Assembly: GCA_020849275.1 (NCBI GenBank)
Contig: JADLGO010000067.1
Coordinates: 1 to 64,000, forward strand
DNA length: 64,000 bases
Reading direction: 5' to 3'
Origin: Chthonomonadales bacterium
GTDB taxonomy: Bacteria > Armatimonadota > Chthonomonadetes > Chthonomonadales > CAJBBX01
Shown: positions 42,489-53,134 of the stretch, piece by piece
Layout of the letters: the number at the start of each line of letters is the position of its first letter
How positions within the stretch are numbered: the first letter of the stretch is position 1
Notes under the pieces: model-generated
What the model saw: only the letters and a program-made list of their open reading frames with translations
Database searches by the model: none
Told to the model about the DNA's origin: nothing
Made by a program: the position numbers and the translations under genes

Positions 42489-43850
42489 ATGGAGGATCGC
42501 ACGCATCAGATCGCCGGGCAGTCTGGCCCGGCCCGCCCGGGGCCGGCCGACCGCACCGTGGTGACCGGCGCGCAGGGCGCGGCCCCGGACGCGATGCGCA
42601 CCACGATGGGCGCGCCCATGCGCGGCCTGGAGATCGAGGCCGTTCCCGGCGCCTCCTCGCTCTATGCGGCGAGCCCCACGCGCGAGCACCTGCTGCTGCT
42701 TCTGCGCTCGTCCGGCGCGGCCGTCGGCCGGCGCATGCCGCTCAACCTCTGCCTGGTGATCGACCGCTCCGGCTCGATGGAGGGCGAGCCGCTCGAGTAC
42801 GTCAAGAGGGCCTGCGGCTACGTGGTGGACCTGTTGGAGCCGACCGACATCCTCTCGATCGTCACGTTCGAGGAGCAGGTGGAGGTCGTCATGCCCGCGC
42901 GTCGCGTGGTGAACAAGGCGCTCGTGAAGGAGCATATCAACCGGATCCAGGCAGGCAACACCACCAACCTGTACGACGGCATGGTCGTCGGTTGCCAGCA
43001 GGTGGCGAGCGTGCCTCCTGGCGGCTACCTGAGCCGGGTGCTGCTGCTCACGGACGGCGAGCCAACCGCCGGCATCAAGGACTTCGCGTCCATCGTGGGG
43101 CAGGTGGGCGAGCAGCGCGCGCGCGGGCTCAGCATCACGGCGCTGGGCTTTGGCAGCGAGTACAATGAGGAGTTGATGGCCGGAATCGCCCGCCGCAGCG
43201 GGGGCAACTACTATTACATCGCCCAGCCGACCCTCATCCCGGAGGTGTTCCGCCGCGAGCTTGAGACGCTGATGACGATCACCGCCCGCGACGTGCGGGT
43301 GCGGATCTCGCTACCGCGCGGCGTGCAGTGCCGCTACGTGTACGGCGTGCCGGCGCCGGCGCTCCGCCCGCGATCGGTCGAGTTCACGCTGCCAGACATC
43401 GAGCGTGGATCCACCGTTGCCAATCTCTCGGAGCTCGAGATCGACCGGCACGTGCCGGGCACCTATCGCCTGGCCCGTGTCGACGTCTCCTACGACGACG
43501 TGGTGTCCGCGCGCGCCGAGACGCTCACTGCCGAAGCGGTGGTGCGATTCGTGCCCGGCCGCGCCGAGGCGGAGGCGACGCGCAATCCCATCGTTCAGCG
43601 CGAGCTCGAGGTGCATCTGGCAAGCCGCAACCTGGAGAAAACGATGATGGGCATGCGGACCCAGCAGCTCAGCGCGGGCGGCGTGATGCAGGAGCTACAG
43701 CGCACGCGAACGGTGCTGATGCAGGCAGGGCGCGCCGAACAGGCCCGCGAGGTGGGCCAGGCCATGGACGCGCTGCGCCAGGGCGGCGAGGTCGAGAAGA
43801 CCCTTATCGGCACGATCGTCAACCTTGACCAGGGCAAGAAGCGCGAGTAG
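42489..43850 (+). CDS. VWA-domain protein with intact MIDAS motif
   Basis: 453 residues. After a flexible N-terminus, residues about 85-265 form a von Willebrand A domain with the MIDAS motif DRSGSM, then TNLYDG (Thr) and LLTDGEPT (Asp). The C-terminal half is beta-rich and ends in a helix-rich, Gln/Arg-rich tail. No signal peptide or membrane helix is seen, so it is likely cytoplasmic and binds a partner through a metal. Such proteins often sit with FHA or AAA+ genes. TGGAGGTT precedes ATG 42489. Confidence 0.85.
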   Translation: MEDRTHQIAGQSGPARPGPADRTVVTGAQGAAPDAMRTTMGAPMRGLEIEAVPGASSLYAASPTREHLLLLLRSSGAAVGRRMPLNLCLVIDRSGSMEGEPLEYVKRACGYVVDLLEPTDILSIVTFEEQVEVVMPARRVVNKALVKEHINRIQAGNTTNLYDGMVVGCQQVASVPPGGYLSRVLLLTDGEPTAGIKDFASIVGQVGEQRARGLSITALGFGSEYNEELMAGIARRSGGNYYYIAQPTLIPEVFRRELETLMTITARDVRVRISLPRGVQCRYVYGVPAPALRPRSVEFTLPDIERGSTVANLSELEIDRHVPGTYRLARVDVSYDDVVSARAETLTAEAVVRFVPGRAEAEATRNPIVQRELEVHLASRNLEKTMMGMRTQQLSAGGVMQELQRTRTVLMQAGRAEQAREVGQAMDALRQGGEVEKTLIGTIVNLDQGKKRE

Positions 43851-43856
43851 CCGCCC

Positions 43857-43873
43857 TCGCGGCCCGGCCGCGA
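43857..43873 (+). other. GC hairpin between the VWA and fourth FHA genes
   Basis: TCGCGGCC, C, GGCCGCGA: 8-base perfect arms, 8 bp after the VWA stop. The loop opens to 3 nt. No T-run. Confidence 0.35.
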
Positions 43874-43905
43874 CCGCCTGGCCATCTGCTCGCAAGGAGC
43901 GCCGA

Positions 43906-44949
43906 ATGGAGATGAACGAGCCCACCCGCGTCATGACTCCCGGGGCTGTCCCCGCGCCGGCCGCGCCGGCCGGGGCGGCGGCCACCCGGATGGGCGCCAC
44001 CCTCACCTGCGCGGTGTGCGGCACCCCCAACACCGGGCTCGAAACCTACTGCGCGGAGTGCGGCTTCCTACTTGGCTCGGATCCTGGCGAGGCGGTCGAG
44101 TCGGCCGCCGAGGATCGGGAGGCGCCAGGCCTGGTCGACCGCGCCAGTGGCCGCCGCTTCGCGTTGCACACGGGCGCCAACACCGTGGGGCGGGAGAGCA
44201 CGGACGTGCTACTGATGGACGGTACCGTCTCGCGCCGCCATGCCCGGGTTGAGGTCGACGAGGCCGGTACCCGCGTGACCGACCTGGGCAGCACCAATGG
44301 CACACAGGTCGACGGCGCGCCGATCCCGGCCCACCAGGCCGCACCGCTGGAACCGGGCTCCGAGGTGCGGTTCGGCAACGTCGCGCTCGTCTTCGTCATC
44401 GGGCAGGAGGTGCCGGAGCCCGCTCTCGCGGCGCCCGCCGAGGCCACTGCGGCGATGCCCGCTGCCGGCGCCGACTCCACGCTGGCGCTGAACGCCGACT
44501 CCGGTCCGACCGAGGAGAGCGTGACAGGGGAGCCGCCGTCCTACCGGCTGACTCCGGGCGCCCCGGACCGGCCGGAGATGCTCGTGCGCCTGGGGGCCTG
44601 GGGCATCGGTCGTCGCCCCGGAAACGCCTTCGTGATCGCCGGAGACCCGTTCGTGTCGAGCCGCCACGCCGAGCTCAACTGCGGCAACATGGGCTGTCAC
44701 ATCACCGACGTCGGCAGCACCAACGGCACGCTCGTGAACGGTGAGCGCCTGGAGCCCGGCCTGGAGCGGCTGCTCCTCGATGGCGACGAGGTGACCATCG
44801 GCCAGTGCACCTACCGGTTCGAGACGCTGGAGCCGCCTGAGCTCGCCGAGGACGAGGCAGACCCGGTCGGCCGGTCCGCGCCCGCCCCGGACCAGTTGGC
44901 CGCCTCCGGCGCTCCGGAGGAGTCGACCGCCGAGGGCGAGGCTCGATGA
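43906..44949 (+). CDS. Zinc-ribbon protein with two FHA domains
   Basis: 347 residues. The zinc ribbon CAVCGTPNTGLETYCAECG is at about residues 31-49. FHA 1 follows (about 75-165; NTVGRESTDVLLMDGTVSRRHARVEV; STNGTQVDG), then a linker rich in Ala, Glu and Thr, and FHA 2 (about 225-315; WGIGRRPGNAFVIAGDPFVSSRHAELNC; STNGTLVNG). The acidic tail is probably disordered. No membrane segment. It starts at ATG 43906 behind AAGGAG and ends in a 4-bp overlap with the phosphatase gene, so the two products are made together. Confidence 0.86.
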   Translation: MEMNEPTRVMTPGAVPAPAAPAGAAATRMGATLTCAVCGTPNTGLETYCAECGFLLGSDPGEAVESAAEDREAPGLVDRASGRRFALHTGANTVGRESTDVLLMDGTVSRRHARVEVDEAGTRVTDLGSTNGTQVDGAPIPAHQAAPLEPGSEVRFGNVALVFVIGQEVPEPALAAPAEATAAMPAAGADSTLALNADSGPTEESVTGEPPSYRLTPGAPDRPEMLVRLGAWGIGRRPGNAFVIAGDPFVSSRHAELNCGNMGCHITDVGSTNGTLVNGERLEPGLERLLLDGDEVTIGQCTYRFETLEPPELAEDEADPVGRSAPAPDQLAASGAPEESTAEGEAR

Positions 44950-45944
44950 GCGGCGAGCCGGCCACCGGCGCCGTACGCGAGGGGCACGAAGGGCAGGAGG
45001 AGCCGGAGGTCACCGCGCGGTTCTCGCGCGACGAGCTCGTGCGCGGCTGGCGCGAGCGCGAGGCGCGCCAGCCGCGCGTCGTCGCCACCACCCGGCTCGG
45101 CGTCAAAACCGACCTGGGCCGCGTGCGCGAGAACAACGAGGATAAGGCCGACTTCTACGAGCCCGAGGATCCCACCCTGCTGGCCACGCGCGGTTGCTTC
45201 TACGCCGTCGCGGACGGAATGGGCGGCCACGCCGCCGGCCAGATTGCCAGCGAGATGGCGCTCAAGCAGGTCATCGCGGCGTACTATGACTCGGCCTCAC
45301 CCACCATCCAGACGGCGCTGAGCGAGGCGGTCGTCGCCGCGAACGAGGCGATCCATAGCCTGGCCACCCTGGTCCCCTCGCGGAGCGGCATGGGAACCAC
45401 GCTCACAGCGCTGATCGTAGTCGAGGATAGCGTGTACGTGGCTCAGGTGGGCGACAGCCGCGCCTACCTGATCCGCGGCGGCGCAATCCGCCAGGTGACC
45501 GAGGACCACTCCTGGGTCGCGGAGCAGGTGCGGCTCGGCGGCATGACTACCGAGGAGGCCGAGGTCTCTCCCTACCGGAACGTCATCACGCGCTCCATCG
45601 GCACGCAGTCAACCGTCGAGCTGGACCTCTTCGCGGAGGAAGCCAGGAGCGGCGACCGTTGGGTCCTGTGCTCCGATGGTCTGACCGGCCACGTCACCGA
45701 CGATGAGATCCTGCGTATTGCGTGTGAGCAGGCGCCCTCCGAGGCGTGTCGGCAGCTCGTCGAGGTAGCCTGTGCTCGCGGCGGGCGCGACAACGTGACG
45801 GTTCTGGTGCTCGCGATCCGCCAGATGGCGGCTCCGCCGGTCGACGACGCCGCGCCGTCCGGGCAGCCCGCGGAGGAAACGCGCGCGGAGGCGGAGCCGG
45901 CCGGAGGTCTGCGCCGTGGGCGGCGCGGCCTGTTTGGGCGGTAG
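44946..45944 (+). CDS. PP2C-family Ser/Thr protein phosphatase
   Basis: 332 residues. PP2C motifs are complete: DLGRVRENNEDKADF, FYAVADGMGGHAAGQIAS, SGMGTTLTALIV, VGDSRAYLIR, EDHSW, CSDGLTGHVTDDEI and GGRDNVTVLVL, giving the Mn/Mg-binding Asp set. The N-terminal 45 residues and the C-terminal 40 (Pro/Ala/Glu, then Arg-rich) look disordered. It would reverse phosphorylation by the kinase encoded three genes on. Its ATG overlaps the stop of the double-FHA gene. Confidence 0.94.
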   Translation: MSGEPATGAVREGHEGQEEPEVTARFSRDELVRGWREREARQPRVVATTRLGVKTDLGRVRENNEDKADFYEPEDPTLLATRGCFYAVADGMGGHAAGQIASEMALKQVIAAYYDSASPTIQTALSEAVVAANEAIHSLATLVPSRSGMGTTLTALIVVEDSVYVAQVGDSRAYLIRGGAIRQVTEDHSWVAEQVRLGGMTTEEAEVSPYRNVITRSIGTQSTVELDLFAEEARSGDRWVLCSDGLTGHVTDDEILRIACEQAPSEACRQLVEVACARGGRDNVTVLVLAIRQMAAPPVDDAAPSGQPAEETRAEAEPAGGLRRGRRGLFGR

Positions 45945-45966
45945 CGGCGCGCCCACGGGAGCAGCG

Positions 45967-46632
45967 ATGGACCAGGTCGAGAGAACTCAGCGCAGCAGGG
46001 CCCTGTCGATGTGGCTCAGGCACAAGCCGATGGTTGCCGGACTTGCGCTGGACGGCTCCGGGTGGGCGACGGTCGACGACGTGCTGGCCGCCCTCGAGCG
46101 CCGGGGTCTCCCAACCGATCGCGCCGCCTTCGATGAGATCCTGCGGCTTGACGCCAAGGGGCGCTTTGAGGTGGAAGGCTCGCGCGTGCGCGCACGCTAT
46201 GGCCACAGCCTTGCGCTCGAGGAGGCGCCTCACCCCGGCAAACCGCCGGCCACGCTCTATCACGGGACGATGCGTCGGCACGTGCCGCGGATACTGCAGA
46301 TGGGTCTGCGGCCGATGAAGCGCTGCTACGTGCACCTTTCGCCGGACCGCAAGTCGGCGCGGCTGGTGGGGCAGCGGCGCGATCAAGAGGCGGTCGTGCT
46401 CGTGGTGGCCGCGCACGCCGCGCACGACGCCGGTGTGCGCTTCTACCCGCGCGGCAAGGCGGTCTGGCTGAGTGACCCTGTGCCGGCGGAGTTTCTCTCC
46501 GTGCTGCCGGAGCCACCGCGCAATCCCGCCACGCCTCGCTCCTCGCGCACGGCGCGCGAGGAGGCGCCGGGCACCCCGCGCCGCCGCCGCCCCAGGGGCG
46601 GCTTCATGAAGCGCGACCGGCCGGAACGCTGA
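45967..46632 (+). CDS. kptA: RNA 2'-phosphotransferase (KptA/Tpt1)
   Basis: 221 residues. Moves a 2'-phosphate from RNA to NAD+, giving ADP-ribose 1'',2''-cyclic phosphate. The N-terminal winged-helix part begins RALSMWLRHKPMVAGLALDGSGWATVDDVLA (the Arg-His of the catalytic set). The ADP-ribosyltransferase-like part has LYHGT, CYVHLSPDRKSAR and VWLSDPVPAEFL. A basic Arg/Pro tail of about 45 residues follows. ATG 45967 follows GGGAG. Bacteria mostly lack the 2'-phosphate splicing intermediates, so the substrate here is unclear. Confidence 0.92.
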   Translation: MDQVERTQRSRALSMWLRHKPMVAGLALDGSGWATVDDVLAALERRGLPTDRAAFDEILRLDAKGRFEVEGSRVRARYGHSLALEEAPHPGKPPATLYHGTMRRHVPRILQMGLRPMKRCYVHLSPDRKSARLVGQRRDQEAVVLVVAAHAAHDAGVRFYPRGKAVWLSDPVPAEFLSVLPEPPRNPATPRSSRTAREEAPGTPRRRRPRGGFMKRDRPER

Positions 46633-46633
46633 G

Positions 46634-46667
46634 GCGGCGCCGACCTGGGAGTGTCGGCAGACGCCGC
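46634..46667 (+). other. Two-part hairpin between kptA and the kinase gene
   Basis: Inner stem GCCGAC (46639-46644) with GTCGGC (46653-46658); outer stem GCGGC (46634-46638) with GCCGC (46663-46667). It fills most of the 55-bp gap. Confidence 0.35.
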
Positions 46668-46687
46668 AGGCGGGATCGTGGAACCGT

Positions 46688-48433
46688 ATGAGCTCCGATG
46701 TGATCGCCGGAAGATACCGCGTCGTCCGCGAGATCGCCCGCTCCAACGACGTCGTCTACGAAGCCATCGACGGCGCGATGGGCCGGCGCATCGCCGTCAA
46801 AGAGCTCGTCATCCCGCCGAACCTGAGCGACCAGGCGCGGCGCGAGCGCATCGAGCGGTTCAACCGCGAGGCGCGGGCGGCCGGCAAGCTCTCCCACCCC
46901 AACATCGTCACCATCTACAACTTCGGCGAGGACGGCGGGCGATACTTCATCGCGATGGAGTACCTGGAGGGTGAGACGCTCCGCGACCTTCTCCAGGCCC
47001 GCCGCCCACTCCCTCCCGACGAAGCTGTGGAGATCGCCGGGCAGGTGCTCGCGGCCCTCGGCCACGCGCACGCGCATCGTGTCGTTCATCGCGACGTAAA
47101 GCCCGACAACATCCACCTTCTTCCGGGCGGCCAGGTGAAGCTGACCGACTTCGGCATCGCCCGCCTGACGGAGGAGGCCTCGCTCACGGGCGATGGCCAG
47201 GTGTTCGGGACCCCCAGCTACATGTCGCCCGAGCAGATCGAGGGACGGGGCATCGACCTTCGGACGGACCTGTTCTCGCTGGGAGTCGTCCTCTACGAGA
47301 TGCTGGCGGGCCACAAGCCGTTCATCGGCGACAGCGTGGTGAGCATCACGTACGCCATCATGAACGCCGATCCCGCCCCGATGGCCGGCGTGCCCCTGTC
47401 GCTGGAGCAAGTGGTGCGAAGGGCGCTCGCCAAGCGCCCCGCGGAGCGCTACGCGTCCGCCGACGAGATGCGCCGCGAGATGCGCGCCGCCGCCTCGGTG
47501 CCCTCCATGTTCCTCCCGACCGCGCAGCCGACCGGCATGGGCTACTTCGGCGCCGGCGCGAGCGCCCCCGCTGTGCCACCCGCCCACGCGCCGGCGCCCG
47601 CGCCGCCTCAGGCCTCCCCTCCACCGCCGGCCGTGGTCGCGCCCTCGGCCGGACCGTTCGTCAACTGGAGCGCGCCGTCCGGCAGCGCCGCGGCGCCACC
47701 GGCGCCGCCCGCGTTCGGGCGCCGGCCGAGCCCCGGAATCTCGGAAGCCGGACGCACTGCACTCGTCGTGCTCACATGGATCCTCGTCATCGCGGGCGGC
47801 ATCGTTGGCTTCGTGCTTCTCTTCGACCGCGCCTACCAGCAGCAGATTGCCCACAGCGCCTCGCTGGCCATTGGGCGAGCGATGGAGGAGGGCAACCGCA
47901 TGGTAGCCGCCGGCGATCTCCAGGGCGCGGCCACACGCTACGCGCAGGTGCTGCGCGCGGCGCCCGGAACGGAGATCGCCGCCGATGCGCGCACCAACCT
48001 CGCGACGACGCTGAACCGGCTCGGCGTGCGCTCCTACGAGAACCGCGACTTCCTCACGGCCGAGGACCACTTCTCCCACGTCGTCGCCCTCTACCAGCGT
48101 GAGGCCGACGTGCGCACGGAGGCCGACCTGCGCGAGTTGGAGAACGCCCGCCTCAACCTTGCTCGCATCTACAGCCGCGCGGGGGCCGCGCCCGACGCGC
48201 TTCCGGGGGCCGGGTGGCCCGGAATGACCGGGGGAGCGCCGGACGCCGGGCTGGCGATGCGGCTGGACCAGGCCCAGCGGTATCTGGAGCTCGGCAACCA
48301 GGCCTGGAGCGCGGGCGACCGCAACGGCGCGCGCTCCTACTGGGTCAAGGCCGCCGAGGCCGGCGTGGGCACAGCGATCGGCGATCAGGCGCAGCGGGCG
48401 CTCTCGCGGACCGCCACCAGCCCCGAGTTCTAG
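46688..48433 (+). CDS. Membrane Ser/Thr protein kinase with extracytoplasmic repeat region
   Basis: 581 residues. The kinase domain is at 8-270: catalytic Lys38 (IAVKEL), Glu61 of helix C, HRD at 134-136, DFG at 154-156, and SPE at 180-182 in place of APE. The glycine-rich loop is missing: IARSNDVVYEA (16-26) has no Gly. A Pro/Ala linker, one transmembrane helix (about 357-379) and a TPR-like helical region (about 385-570) follow; the repeats would face outward. It probably phosphorylates Thr on partners read by the FHA proteins. ATG 46688 is preceded by a weak GGAACC. Confidence 0.9.
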   Translation: MSSDVIAGRYRVVREIARSNDVVYEAIDGAMGRRIAVKELVIPPNLSDQARRERIERFNREARAAGKLSHPNIVTIYNFGEDGGRYFIAMEYLEGETLRDLLQARRPLPPDEAVEIAGQVLAALGHAHAHRVVHRDVKPDNIHLLPGGQVKLTDFGIARLTEEASLTGDGQVFGTPSYMSPEQIEGRGIDLRTDLFSLGVVLYEMLAGHKPFIGDSVVSITYAIMNADPAPMAGVPLSLEQVVRRALAKRPAERYASADEMRREMRAAASVPSMFLPTAQPTGMGYFGAGASAPAVPPAHAPAPAPPQASPPPPAVVAPSAGPFVNWSAPSGSAAAPPAPPAFGRRPSPGISEAGRTALVVLTWILVIAGGIVGFVLLFDRAYQQQIAHSASLAIGRAMEEGNRMVAAGDLQGAATRYAQVLRAAPGTEIAADARTNLATTLNRLGVRSYENRDFLTAEDHFSHVVALYQREADVRTEADLRELENARLNLARIYSRAGAAPDALPGAGWPGMTGGAPDAGLAMRLDQAQRYLELGNQAWSAGDRNGARSYWVKAAEAGVGTAIGDQAQRALSRTATSPEF

Positions 48434-48446
48434 CCAGGAGCCCTCC

Positions 48447-49514
48447 ATGCGCAGCCGCGGCACGCCCTCCGGAGCTCGCCAGGAGCCCCTACCGCAGATC
48501 GCCGACCTGCTCGAGCGCGGCGACACGGACGCCGCCAACCGTCTTCAGGACCTGGCCGTAACCGGCGATCGCGCCGTCTCCAAAGCCGCGCGCCGCGCGC
48601 TTTACCTTCTGGGTGAGCGGGGCGTGACGCCCGCTGCGCCGGCTCCCAGGCCGACGCCCCCGGCCGCCGCCGCGCATTCGCCCGCGATGCGCTCCTATGC
48701 CACCCTCTCCGACGTCGGCGACGACTGGTCGCTGGTGCTTGTGCGCGACGACCCGTACGGCGGCAACCCCGTGTTCGCAACCGTGGACGTGTCGATGGGG
48801 GTCGTGAGCGGCGCGGCGCAGAGGAAGGTGCCGGGGCGCGAGCTCGAGGCGTACCTGAAGCGCGCCACCCGGAGCGACGAGGGCTTGGTCGCCGAGGTTC
48901 CCCATACGGCGGCGCATCGACTGCTGCTCAACGCCGAGGACCGCATGCGCCGGGCCGCCCGACCGATGCCCCCGGCCCTTCACGCGGTGACGGAGCCGCT
49001 GCGCGCGCTGCCGGAGCCTCCGTCGCTGGACCAGATCCTCGTCGCGCTTGGGGTCCCGCCCGCGGCGGACGACCACTCGTTCTCTCGCGACGCCGCGGCC
49101 ATGCTCCGGGAGCCGTGGTTTCGCCCCTGGTTCGTGGACACCAAGCGCGCGGAGCCCTGGACCGACCGCCTGCTCCAGGCGCTCCGCACGCCACTCGTGC
49201 TTACGAGGGCACAGCTCACGGCCGTCGCCGAGCGCGTCGTGCGGCAGGCGACCGACGACCTGATCGGCGGCGAGACGGCGCTCGCCTTCCGCGAACGGCT
49301 GGAGCGCAGCGCGCTCGTCCTGTGGTGCGGCGGGCACGCGGAGGCGGCGCGCGCGGCCGTCTACCACGCGGCGCAGATCCGCGAGGGTCAGCCGCCGCAC
49401 GAGGTTGGCGTGCTGTACAGCCTGGTCCACCGAACGATCACTGCCATCGCGGAGATGCGCGAGAGGGAACGAAGCAAGCGGCCCGAGGAGGCGTCGCCGA
49501 TCATTGTCCCGTAG
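48447..49514 (+). CDS. Uncharacterised 355-residue protein, last of the FHA/kinase cluster
   Basis: I do not recognise a family. Residues 10-58 look like paired helices (LPQIADLLERGDTDAANRLQDLAV ... AARRALYLLGERG) resembling a HEAT-type repeat. A Pro/Ala linker follows, then a mixed alpha/beta part with SYATLSDVGDDWSLVLVRDDPYGGNPVF, and a helical C-terminus. No signal or membrane segment is seen. It starts 13 bp after the kinase stop with CCAGGAG upstream. Its last 14 bp overlap the convergent membrane-protease-like gene. Co-location suggests a scaffold or target, but this is only context. Confidence 0.7.
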   Translation: MRSRGTPSGARQEPLPQIADLLERGDTDAANRLQDLAVTGDRAVSKAARRALYLLGERGVTPAAPAPRPTPPAAAAHSPAMRSYATLSDVGDDWSLVLVRDDPYGGNPVFATVDVSMGVVSGAAQRKVPGRELEAYLKRATRSDEGLVAEVPHTAAHRLLLNAEDRMRRAARPMPPALHAVTEPLRALPEPPSLDQILVALGVPPAADDHSFSRDAAAMLREPWFRPWFVDTKRAEPWTDRLLQALRTPLVLTRAQLTAVAERVVRQATDDLIGGETALAFRERLERSALVLWCGGHAEAARAAVYHAAQIREGQPPHEVGVLYSLVHRTITAIAEMRERERSKRPEEASPIIVP

Positions 49515-50484
49515 CGGGCTCCGGCCGAACGCGCGGCGGTGGGCCGACGGGTTCGCCGGCGGGCTCGGGTCGCGAGCGGGCGAACAGCCAGAACCCCGCA
49601 GCGATCGCGAGGATGAAGAAACCTGCGTAGATCAGGGCGAACGCCTCGCTTCGCTCGTAGTGAAATGCGCTCCAGTGCATGCCGATCAGCACGATCGCCA
49701 TCGGCACGAGCGCTGGCAGGCTCCAGCCCGTGAAGAAGACGAGCAGCATGTAGGCGCAGAGCACCACGATCAGCACCCAGATCGTGCGCCGAAACGCCGG
49801 CAGGCCGCCCAGAAAGCGGTGCAGCGCCGCCATGAAGAAGGCGATGAAGAGGAAGTCGGCGAACCCGACCACCATCATGGGCGTGGCGTTGGGGCCCCGC
49901 GACTCGGGCGCTGGCAGCGGCACCGTGAGACTGCGGACGACCGCCTGGGCGGCTGGCGTCTGGCTCCGCATCGCCTGCTGGACTGGCCCCCCGAGCAGCA
50001 CCGTCCAGATGTCCACGAGCGCGAGGACTGCCGCCACGGGAGGGATCATGTTTGCCGCGCGCACGAGCCGGGAGAGCGCGGCGCCGATGGACGCCGCGAA
50101 CCAGATCGTGAGCAGATGTGGCAGACCAGGCACGAAGACCAGATAGACCCACGGCGCCACGGGGCGACGGAGGGCGAACATGGTCAGGAGCGGAACGACA
50201 AGGCCCCCCGACACGAGAATGCTGAGCGCCAGGGAGCGAACGGTGCGCAGTGCGAGCGCGAGATACGCGGTGAGCCAGATCACCAGCGCAAGCGAGACGA
50301 CCGTCGAAGCGAGGACCATGGCCACGCCGTCGACGCGGATGCGCGGGACGATCTGCCAGAACAGGAGGAACGCCAGCGCGGCGAGAGCGGGAACGACCCA
50401 ACGCGAAGAGCTCGTGCCAGTCCGCCCGCCGGGCGTGCCGCCGGCATCTGCCATCGGGGAGACGCGTGGGGCGTCGTCGGTCAT
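49501..50484 (-). CDS. Polytopic membrane protein with presenilin/SPP-like aspartyl protease motifs
   Basis: 327 residues, 8-9 hydrophobic segments (about 29-46, 52-79, 83-105, 110-139, 146-165, 202-223, 234-252, 255-273, 281-302), no signal peptide, polar tail. Three motifs stand out in order: LALVDIW with Asp158 mid-helix, VGFADF with Asp210 mid-helix, and LPALVP with Pro256-Ala257-Leu258. Family A22 proteases show YD, GxGD and PAL in this order; archaeal members have similar Asp spacing as I recall. Here GxGD is GFAD and the Tyr before the first Asp is Val. Assignment is tentative. AGGAGG precedes ATG 50484. Confidence 0.6.
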   Translation of the reverse strand: MTDDAPRVSPMADAGGTPGGRTGTSSSRWVVPALAALAFLLFWQIVPRIRVDGVAMVLASTVVSLALVIWLTAYLALALRTVRSLALSILVSGGLVVPLLTMFALRRPVAPWVYLVFVPGLPHLLTIWFAASIGAALSRLVRAANMIPPVAAVLALVDIWTVLLGGPVQQAMRSQTPAAQAVVRSLTVPLPAPESRGPNATPMMVVGFADFLFIAFFMAALHRFLGGLPAFRRTIWVLIVVLCAYMLLVFFTGWSLPALVPMAIVLIGMHWSAFHYERSEAFALIYAGFFILAIAAGFWLFARSRPEPAGEPVGPPPRVRPEPATGQ

Positions 50485-50558: not shown

Positions 50559-50769
50559 GCGAGCCGGATGCGCGTGAACTCGCACTACCTCAACGGAGAC
50601 GGCGGTGCGCTCCTCGGCCGTCGGTCGCCGCCTCCCCGTCAGTCCGGTTCTGTCGCGCTTCGTCACACGTCGCAGTGCGCTCGCCCTCCCGAGACCGCCA
50701 GGTTGGCGCCGGCCCACCGATGGGAGGGAGCGCGTTCGCCGCCAGAGCCAGGCACAGGAGAGGCCGACC
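50545..50769 (+). other. Long GC-rich leader ahead of the ANTAR regulator gene
   Basis: No gene is supported here. If transcription starts near 50545, this 225-nt segment is an untranslated leader. It can form stems (for example a 6-bp GACGGC with GCCGTC pair), but no structure stands out by eye. A site for self-control by the ANTAR protein is possible. Confidence 0.4.
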
Positions 50770-51366
50770 GTGACCGAAGCAACCACCCCCGCCACGCCCT
50801 TACGTGTCGTCATCGCCGATGACGAACCGATCATCTTGCTCGACCTCAAGAAGATGATCGAGGATCTGGGATACGACGTCGTCGCCGAGGCGGGCGACGG
50901 AGCCAAGGCCGTCGAGGCCGCGCGCAACCTGACCCCCGACGTCGTGATACTCGACATCCGAATGCCCATCATGGACGGGATCGACGCCGCCAAGGTGATC
51001 ACCGAAGAGCGCATCGCCCCGGTCGTTCTGCTCACCGCCTACAGCCAGGTCGACCTCGTCAAGCGCGCCCGCGAGGCGGGGGTCTACTCGTACCTGGTGA
51101 AGCCGTTCAAGGCCGCCGACCTGATGCCCGCCATCGAGATCGCGATCAGCCGCTGGCAGGAGTACCTGGCGCTTCAGCAGGAGGCGCGCGACTTCGAGGA
51201 CAAGCTCGAAACGCGCAAGGCCGTCGACCGCGCCAAGGGGATCCTGATGGACCAGTACGGCCTGAAGGAGCAAGAGGCGTTCCGCCGCATTCAGGTGCAG
51301 AGCATGAACACGCGCAGGTCCATGCGCGAGATCGCCGAAGCCATCATCATCGCGCACAACGTGTAG
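50770..51366 (+). CDS. ANTAR-domain response regulator (RNA-binding antiterminator type)
   Basis: 198 residues. Receiver domain 10-125 with acidic pocket (ADDEP), phosphoacceptor Asp62 (VVILDIRMP), Thr in VLLTAYS and Lys in YLVKPF. The C-terminal 60 residues are an ANTAR domain: KAVDRAKGILMDQYGLKEQEAFRRIQVQSMNTRRSMREIAEAII. Such proteins (AmiR, NasR, EutV) bind paired hairpins in RNA and prevent termination. GTG 50770 follows AGGAGAGG. The histidine kinase gene starts 10 bp after its stop, as in EutV/EutW-type pairs; ethanolamine genes are absent here. Confidence 0.92.
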   Translation: MTEATTPATPLRVVIADDEPIILLDLKKMIEDLGYDVVAEAGDGAKAVEAARNLTPDVVILDIRMPIMDGIDAAKVITEERIAPVVLLTAYSQVDLVKRAREAGVYSYLVKPFKAADLMPAIEIAISRWQEYLALQQEARDFEDKLETRKAVDRAKGILMDQYGLKEQEAFRRIQVQSMNTRRSMREIAEAIIIAHNV

Positions 51367-51376
51367 GGGGTTCGCC

Positions 51377-53134
51377 ATGCGCTTTCCCCTGCGCGCGCGC
51401 AGGGTCGAGGTCGCCCGCCGCCGCGTGAGCGATGACCCGGATATGGCCCTGCTCCAGCAGGAACTGGAGGCCCGCGACCGCGAGATCCGCGATGCCAATC
51501 TGCTGATCGAGCGCCTCCAGGCGGACCTGGAGGACCGAGGCGCCGAGGCCGACGCATTGCGGCGCATCGGCGAGGCTACCGGTTCAGCCTTCGATCTGCA
51601 GGAGATCCTGAAGGTCACCGCCGACATCGCGATCCAGGTCACCGGCACCGACTCCTGCCAGGTCTACCTCTACGACCGCGATCGAGACGAGCTCGTCTTG
51701 CGCGCGGCCGACGAGACCGCCCAGAGCATGATCGGCAAGATCAGGCTGAAGCTGGGGGAGGGCATCACGGGCTGGGTAGCCCGCGAGCGCCGCCACGTCG
51801 CCGTCATGCGCAACGCGACCCAGGACCACCGCTTCAAGTACTTCAGCGAGATCCACGAGGAGGACTACGAGAGCATTCTCTCGGTGCCGCTTGTGGCCAA
51901 GAACGAGGTGATCGGCGTAGTCAACGTGCGCACTCGCCGTCCGCACGTCTACACCAGGAGCCAGGTGCGTCTGCTCTCCGGCATTGCCAACCAGGTCGCC
52001 GGCGCGATCGAGAAGGCCCGGCGCACGCGCCAGTTGGAGAAGGCGGCCGTCCATCTGACCACCCTCTCCGAGGTGAGCCAGGCCATCACCTCCAACATCT
52101 ACATCGACGAGTTGCTCCACCTGTTCGTCGAGATGACCGGACGCACCATGAACTACAAGGTGTGCACGGTCATGCTCGTCAACCCGGACACGGACGAGCT
52201 CGTCATCAAGGCCACGCAGAGCCAGAACGAGGAATACACCCAGAAGCCAAGCCTGAAGGTGGGCGCGAGCGTTGCGGGGCGCGCCGTCGCCGAGAAGCGC
52301 ATCCTCACCGTACGCGACGTCACCGCCCATCCGGAGTACCTGTTCCCGAGCATCGCCCAGAAGGCGGGTCTCTGCTCGTTGGCGTCTGTCCCGCTCTGGG
52401 TGAAGGGCGAGGTGATCGGCGTCCTCAACTGCTACACGGAGAAGGTGCACGAGTTCCCGAAGGAGGAGCTCACCATCCTGCAGGCGCTCAGCGCGCAAGC
52501 CGCGCTCGCCATCGAGACGGCCAAGCTGATGGTGAAATCCGCCGTCATTCAGGAGATGCACCACCGCGTTAAGAACAACCTTCAGCAGATCGCCAGCCTG
52601 GTGCGGCTGCAGATGCACTTCAGCAAGTACATCACCGTGGAGCAGGCGCTCACGGACACGCTGAACCGCATCCTGGCCATCGCCGCTGTCCACGAGCTCC
52701 TTTCGCGTGATGACCTTGACCACGTGAGCATCAACAAGGTGGCGGAACAGATCCTGACGGCCACCAAGCAGAGCGTGATGCCTCCCGGCAAGTCGATCCA
52801 TATGCACGTGGAAGGGCCCGAGGTGCTCTTGCCGCTCATCCACGCCACGACGCTCGCGCTGGTGATGAACGAGCTTGTGCAGAACGCGGTGGAGCACGGC
52901 TTCCGCGAGGCAGACGAGGGCGGGTTGGTGGTCCGGTTGGAGGATGAGGGGGGGTGGGTCACCCTCCGCGTGGTCAACGATGGCGAGCCGCTGCCGGAGG
53001 AGTTCGACCCGGCGCGAACCACGAGCCTCGGGCTGAGGATCGTCACGGACCTGGTTCGCGGCGGCCTGGGTGGCACCTTCGCGATGACGAACGACGGAGG
53101 CACGGCTGCCGTGGTGCGTTTCCCGCGGGGCTGA
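51377..53134 (+). CDS. Soluble GAF-GAF histidine kinase (HisKA_2 type), partner of the ANTAR regulator
   Basis: 585 residues without membrane segments. A coiled coil (about 24-60), GAF 1 (about 70-215), GAF 2 (about 235-385), then the HisKA_2 box EMHHRVKNNLQQIASLVRLQ with the candidate phospho-His at 395/396, and a HATPase domain with NELVQNAVEHGF and the glycine box SLGLRIVTDLV. GAF domains sense small molecules or gases; no ligand can be named. It is cytoplasmic and would phosphorylate the regulator encoded just before it. A 275-bp gap without a gene follows. Confidence 0.92.
   Translation: MRFPLRARRVEVARRRVSDDPDMALLQQELEARDREIRDANLLIERLQADLEDRGAEADALRRIGEATGSAFDLQEILKVTADIAIQVTGTDSCQVYLYDRDRDELVLRAADETAQSMIGKIRLKLGEGITGWVARERRHVAVMRNATQDHRFKYFSEIHEEDYESILSVPLVAKNEVIGVVNVRTRRPHVYTRSQVRLLSGIANQVAGAIEKARRTRQLEKAAVHLTTLSEVSQAITSNIYIDELLHLFVEMTGRTMNYKVCTVMLVNPDTDELVIKATQSQNEEYTQKPSLKVGASVAGRAVAEKRILTVRDVTAHPEYLFPSIAQKAGLCSLASVPLWVKGEVIGVLNCYTEKVHEFPKEELTILQALSAQAALAIETAKLMVKSAVIQEMHHRVKNNLQQIASLVRLQMHFSKYITVEQALTDTLNRILAIAAVHELLSRDDLDHVSINKVAEQILTATKQSVMPPGKSIHMHVEGPEVLLPLIHATTLALVMNELVQNAVEHGFREADEGGLVVRLEDEGGWVTLRVVNDGEPLPEEFDPARTTSLGLRIVTDLVRGGLGGTFAMTNDGGTAAVVRFPRG

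Follow-up and report, generated by a model that had tools for sequence, protein, structure and literature searches.

The locus and its gene neighbourhood

The window, i.e. the complete 64,000-nucleotide stretch of Chthonomonadales DNA that was analysed, carries on its reverse strand a gene for a presenilin-like membrane protein, which is present as a single copy in the source genome (Table 1). The motifs ALVDIW (residues 155-160), VGFADF (206-211) and LPALVP (256-261) were located, together with the reading frame itself, where the original prediction had placed them. Asp158 and Asp210 form the sole Asp pair within the helical part of the protein, the remaining Asp residues being at positions 3, 4, 13 and 52. 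Three departures from intramembrane aspartyl proteases of family A22 had been pointed out, namely Val instead of Tyr before Asp158, GFAD instead of GxGD and an extra helix after PAL, and all three are present.

Table 1. Coordinates within the window of the presenilin-like gene, its principal features and its divergent neighbours
Feature	Position	Strand	Remarks
Gene for presenilin-like membrane protein	49501..50484	(-)	ATG at 50484, stop at 49501, stop included; 327 aa
Putative first catalytic-Asp helix, residues 144-163, with P149 and Asp158 (codon about 50011-50013)	49996..50055	(-)	DSSP of model
Loop strands 187-189 and 205-207, predicted beta pair	49864..49926	(-)	Present in both predicted structures
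GFAD motif and second Asp helix, residues 207-225, with Asp210 (codon about 49855-49857)	49810..49866	(-)	Conservation
PAL motif, residues 257-259	49708..49716	(-)	Conservation; aligns to PAL of PSEN1, PSEN2 and SPPL2a
C-terminal helix 278-304 with Glu280	49573..49653	(-)	Model and conservation
Response regulator with ANTAR domain, divergent neighbour, not part of the proposed enzyme	50605..51366	(+)	Conserved beside the gene in the order
GAF-GAF-HisKA_2 sensor kinase, next neighbour	51377..53134	(+)	

At most loci in Chthonomonadales, a divergently oriented pair of genes, for an ANTAR response regulator and a GAF sensor kinase, adjoins the presenilin-like gene. This neighbourhood is mostly absent from other classes, and the regulator/kinase pair is therefore not regarded as a functional unit of the family. 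At five deep-branching loci (L033, L031, L039, L045 and L047), the next gene downstream, in the same orientation, encodes leucyl-tRNA synthetase (Pfam-confirmed in L033). Gene neighbourhood was rejected as a clue to the substrate, there being no common partner: the regulator/kinase association is conserved in the order alone, and leucyl-tRNA synthetase is the neighbour in five other deep branches. On the forward strand of the window, a 355-aa protein without a Pfam match is encoded at 48447-49514, and its stop overlaps the end of the presenilin-like gene convergently. It is preceded by consecutive genes for VWA, double-FHA, PP2C phosphatase and Ser/Thr kinase proteins (42489-48433, forward strand), where a Tpt1/KptA RNA 2'-phosphotransferase (45916-46632) sits between phosphatase and kinase, unusual company for KptA.

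Distribution and conservation of the family

The presenilin-like gene is near-universal and mostly single-copy in Armatimonadota, with relatives in several other bacterial lineages. A second-round profile detected it in 268 of the 291 genomes of the phylum (186/194 of the high-quality ones), mostly as one copy each, and a protein search of 61 related genomes gave matches in 54. A contig scan using the window protein alone returned no relatives, whereas an alignment of order-level members did find them. Outside Armatimonadota, two of 106 sampled bacterial genomes matched (E 7e-29 and 2e-21), and searches centred on these two matches produced further members from two small phyla and five more genomes elsewhere. 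A plasmid search yielded no homologue of the gene.

Three loci showed unusual gene structures. One single-contig Armatimonadota genome holds the gene in two tandem copies (L108; G078:C1 5630755-5632602). A one-contig genome of the same order as the window encodes its homologue in two frames, with the break between the GFAD helix and LPAL (L028; G015:C1 about 2346825-2347690), which may reflect a frameshift, a sequencing error or a broken gene. Lastly, a non-armatimonadote protein (L170:1-2208, reverse strand) has a presenilin-like domain with GVSD and PALP that continues in frame into a large C-terminal extension with a further membrane segment, an architecture that suggests a sensor-like fusion.

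Conservation was assessed across 100 Armatimonadota homologues sampled phylum-wide, with identity down to about 20%; a separate alignment of all 48 sequences was too diverse for a pattern search. D158, G207, D210 and E280 were each found in 100/100 homologues, and together with P149 they are the only fully invariant columns. Since the motif residues are invariant in homologues of which some share 20-25% identity, the motifs are more than a chance occurrence. Retention of both Asp residues, one of the points on which the original prediction had been staked beforehand, holds throughout the phylum sample and in all relatives aligned from other lineages; in these 11/11 relatives, the Gly that opens GxGD and the Pro of PAL are likewise retained. 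Spacing is stable, with 43-59 residues between the two Asp and 43-54 between the second Asp and PAL. The PAL position reads PAL in 68/100 homologues and PGL in 19/100 (87% together), and Tyr before the first Asp is nearly absent (4/100). One relative from outside the phylum reads DIYSV...GMGDF...LPALP, close to presenilin, another carries GLTD at the second Asp, and PALP is common in other lineages.

At position 209, just before Asp210, 52 of the 100 homologues have Ala and 48 have Gly, dividing the family about evenly between GxAD and GxGD, with a minimum of four switches between the two on a quick tree. The GFAD of the window protein thus departs from GxGD as had been claimed, but it is not an isolated deviation. 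Judged from the alignment, it is one of two natural states rather than a sign of decay, since both occur naturally across the family.

Relationship to presenilins and signal peptide peptidases

Searched alone, the window protein gave no match at E<=10 in Pfam or NCBIfam, and none of relevance among PDB sequences. For PF01080, PF04258 and PF06550, neither the window protein nor any of the 100 members or the relatives scored above the Pfam cut-offs; the highest PF01080 score among the relatives was 16.7 bits against a cut-off of 34.3, and one member from another phylum had PF01080 as its sole Pfam match (E 0.0033, below cut-off). Pfam matches confined to one member, e.g. Cyt_bd_oxida_II, were dismissed as noise from sequence composition. 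The PF06550 model was above cut-off in 0/397 genomes, carriers of the presenilin-like gene included, with sub-threshold noise only in the phylum, and the bacterial branch is therefore not the archaeal PSH family under another name.

Family profiles were searched against 177,635 PDB sequences. One version recovered PSEN1 at E=0.028, a second ranked PSEN2 (0.0036) and PSEN1 (0.0043) first and second, and a third returned just two matches, SPPL2a (0.0046) and PSEN1 (0.0093). All presenilin and SPPL2a alignments produced in this way superpose GxGD on GxGD and PAL on PAL. The single E values are weak and individually marginal, and in one version an unrelated nAChR entry tied with presenilin; at the level of the profiles, it is the catalytic alignment that recurs. 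As a yardstick, a 63-aa piece of PSEN1 (phmmer) finds neither SPPL2a nor PSH, so that accepted relatives are no easier to link by sequence. The top match in a viral library, which by itself lacks significance, was a signal peptide peptidase from Megaviridae. Testing by profile cut both ways: the three Pfam families stayed below their cut-offs, and the best true PDB match of the family profiles was presenilin or SPPL2a.

An AlphaFold2 model of the window protein built with 21 sequences (pTM 0.77, pLDDT 82) has nine long helices, in agreement with the 8-9 hydrophobic segments that had been proposed. Asp158 lies in helix 144-163 and Asp210 in helix 208-225, the fifth and sixth of the nine in the model, with a 44-residue loop between them; PAL immediately precedes helix 259-273, which is followed by a further helix (278-304). 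After re-alignment by VIA-align, presenilin, SPPL2a and PSH accounted for each of the 19 best PDB chains, at Z 11.1-15.2 and an rmsd of 3.0-4.2 A over 153-197 residues, and the next, unrelated chain had Z 5.7. The closest were substrate-bound gamma-secretase chains (6idf, 8oqz, 6iyc), at an rmsd of about 3.1-3.2 A over 194-197 residues. A second modelled member (32% identity) gave presenilin/SPPL2a as its 17 best chains (Z 9.7-14.0; next 7.8). The predicted fold thus matches the presenilin/SPP/PSH type as anticipated, with the match to presenilin and SPPL2a repeated on the second member.

Foldseek alone returned E 0.1 and low TM-scores for the window model, perhaps due to a different helix inventory, and the match was resolved by VIA-align. 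Residues 53-276 of the model span presenilin 73-453 with one helix outside the match at each end, and fewer helices than in presenilin seem to separate the first matched helix from the first Asp helix. A short beta pair is predicted at both ends of the Asp-Asp loop in both models, apparently placed like beta1/beta2 of presenilin, where the strands pair with substrate (augmentation described in PMC12067869).

Compared with known systems, the bacterial family shares with presenilin-1/-2 (PF01080, MEROPS A22A; the gamma-secretase catalytic subunit) two Asp on adjacent helices with a long loop between them, profile-aligned GxGD and LPAL, and, in the models, a beta pair at the loop, and presenilin is also the best structural match (Z 15.2). 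It differs from presenilin in having no YD, GxAD in half of its members, an Asp pair carried by helices 5 and 6, an extra helix after PAL with the invariant Glu280, and a membrane orientation predicted to be opposite. Its likeness to SPP/SPPL (PF04258, A22B) lies in the SPPL2a profile match (E=0.0046), structure (Z 12.3) and a predicted loop-outside orientation, whereas it has no PA domain, no Tyr before the first Asp and only scores below the Pfam cut-off. The archaeal PSH MCMJR1 (PF06550) is likewise a prokaryotic protein made of one chain of about 300 aa, with a structural Z of 11.6-11.9, but belongs to the model that none of the 397 genomes matched above cut-off. Each of its two Asp is essential, and its G219A mutant, which mimics the GxAD state, cleaves more slowly and is still active (PMC2947513).

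With respect to A22 traits, the window protein has the adjacent-helix Asp pair, PAL and the predicted presenilin/SPP fold. Because the Pfam cut-offs, a strict YD and a strict GxGD all fail, we treat it as lying outside the Pfam A22 families as modelled, in a separate branch that shares their fold and catalytic residues. The suggestion of a divergent branch is supported in that the Pfam cut-offs were not reached, yet family profiles and predicted fold point to presenilin/SPP.

Predicted orientation, proposed activity and significance

Mean numbers of Lys plus Arg in the 100 members were 2.2 in the N-tail and 1.8, 1.9, 2.7 and 3.3 in loops 2, 4, 6 and 8, all short segments. In the opposite set they were 0.9 in loop 1, 1.7 in the 20 residues of loop 3, 2.7 in the 44 of loop 5, 0.3 in loop 7 and 1.8 in the C-tail. 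Per residue this amounts to 0.23 in the presumed cytoplasmic set versus 0.08 in the other. Based on this charge distribution and the positive-inside rule, we infer a cytoplasmic N-terminus with the Asp-Asp loop and PAL turn outside, i.e. an SPP-like orientation; SPP has a topology opposite to that of presenilin and cleaves type II proteins (PMC2947513). The family is probably an SPP-like branch.

We consider it likely that the gene encodes a diaspartyl intramembrane protease of the presenilin/SPP fold, from a bacterial branch beyond the current family models of Pfam and NCBIfam. With the long loop linking their two neighbouring helices, Asp158 and Asp210 would form a water-activating pair inside the membrane, and the PAL turn and the strand pair at the loop ends would hold the unwound transmembrane segment of a substrate, as in gamma-secretase. 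The predicted orientation would suit type II (N-in) segments, e.g. leftover signal peptides. An Asp-dependent protease is the most likely reading because exactly the catalytic residues are invariant and by analogy with the Asp and Gly-to-Ala data for MCMJR1.

The foremost alternative is a pseudoprotease that keeps the presenilin fold and the Asp pair for a scaffold, chaperone or ion/proton leak function and cleaves nothing. The missing Tyr, the Ala before the second Asp in half of the members and the added helix could reflect altered chemistry, and similarity of fold alone does not show function. Pseudoproteases, however, usually lose catalytic residues, whereas in this family neither the two Asp nor the Gly that opens GxGD ever varies, even at about 20% identity, and a textbook GxGD is present in about half of the members; we regard this alternative as improbable. 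It is very improbable that the gene encodes an unrelated polytopic membrane protein, e.g. a transporter, with coincidental motifs: such short motifs are common in hydrophobic proteins and single-protein searches find nothing, but the idea is largely refuted by the coincidence of the motifs with the invariant columns, and independent profile and structure searches both reach presenilin/SPP, with transporters scoring far lower. To our knowledge, PAL is not a hallmark of the type IV prepilin/preflagellin peptidases (A24). Kinship with these, which are likewise GxGD diaspartyl membrane proteases and common in bacteria, is likewise very improbable, as their Asp residues lie in soluble regions several helices apart (PMC2947513), no prepilin-peptidase Pfam family is among the matches of the 100 members, and no A24 structure is among the matches listed, which the 19 presenilin-type chains lead.

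As to its role, the proposed intramembrane protease may clear signal peptides and the stubs of type II proteins, as suggested by the predicted orientation, the core-gene status and the lack of any SppA (PF01343) above cut-off in the taxonomic family of the window; we hold this possible, if rather doubtful. SppA is present in 43/101 genomes of the phylum, and these mostly also hold the presenilin-like family, so replacement of SppA was set aside for want of a clean pattern. A stand-in role for Site-2 protease was likewise rejected, that protease being present in 61/61 genomes tested. The fullest reading, in which an ancient, separate bacterial family forms part of the phylum core, GxGD and GxAD are both working sites, GxAD members compensate for the Gly-to-Ala change, and the enzyme clears signal peptides and membrane stubs, is offered tentatively, at somewhat less than even likelihood.

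Descriptions of presenilin-type proteases come from eukaryotes and archaea. The open-access literature searched contained nothing on presenilin together with Armatimonadetes or Chthonomonas, and no description of a bacterial presenilin branch; it may have been described elsewhere. The existence of a bacterial core family, mostly in single copy, alters the view of the distribution and possible age of the presenilin fold, and its small, single-chain enzymes lend themselves to structural studies. The Gly-to-Ala change has been studied in human presenilin as G384A, which impairs the protein, and natural GxAD enzymes could show how the active site tolerates it.
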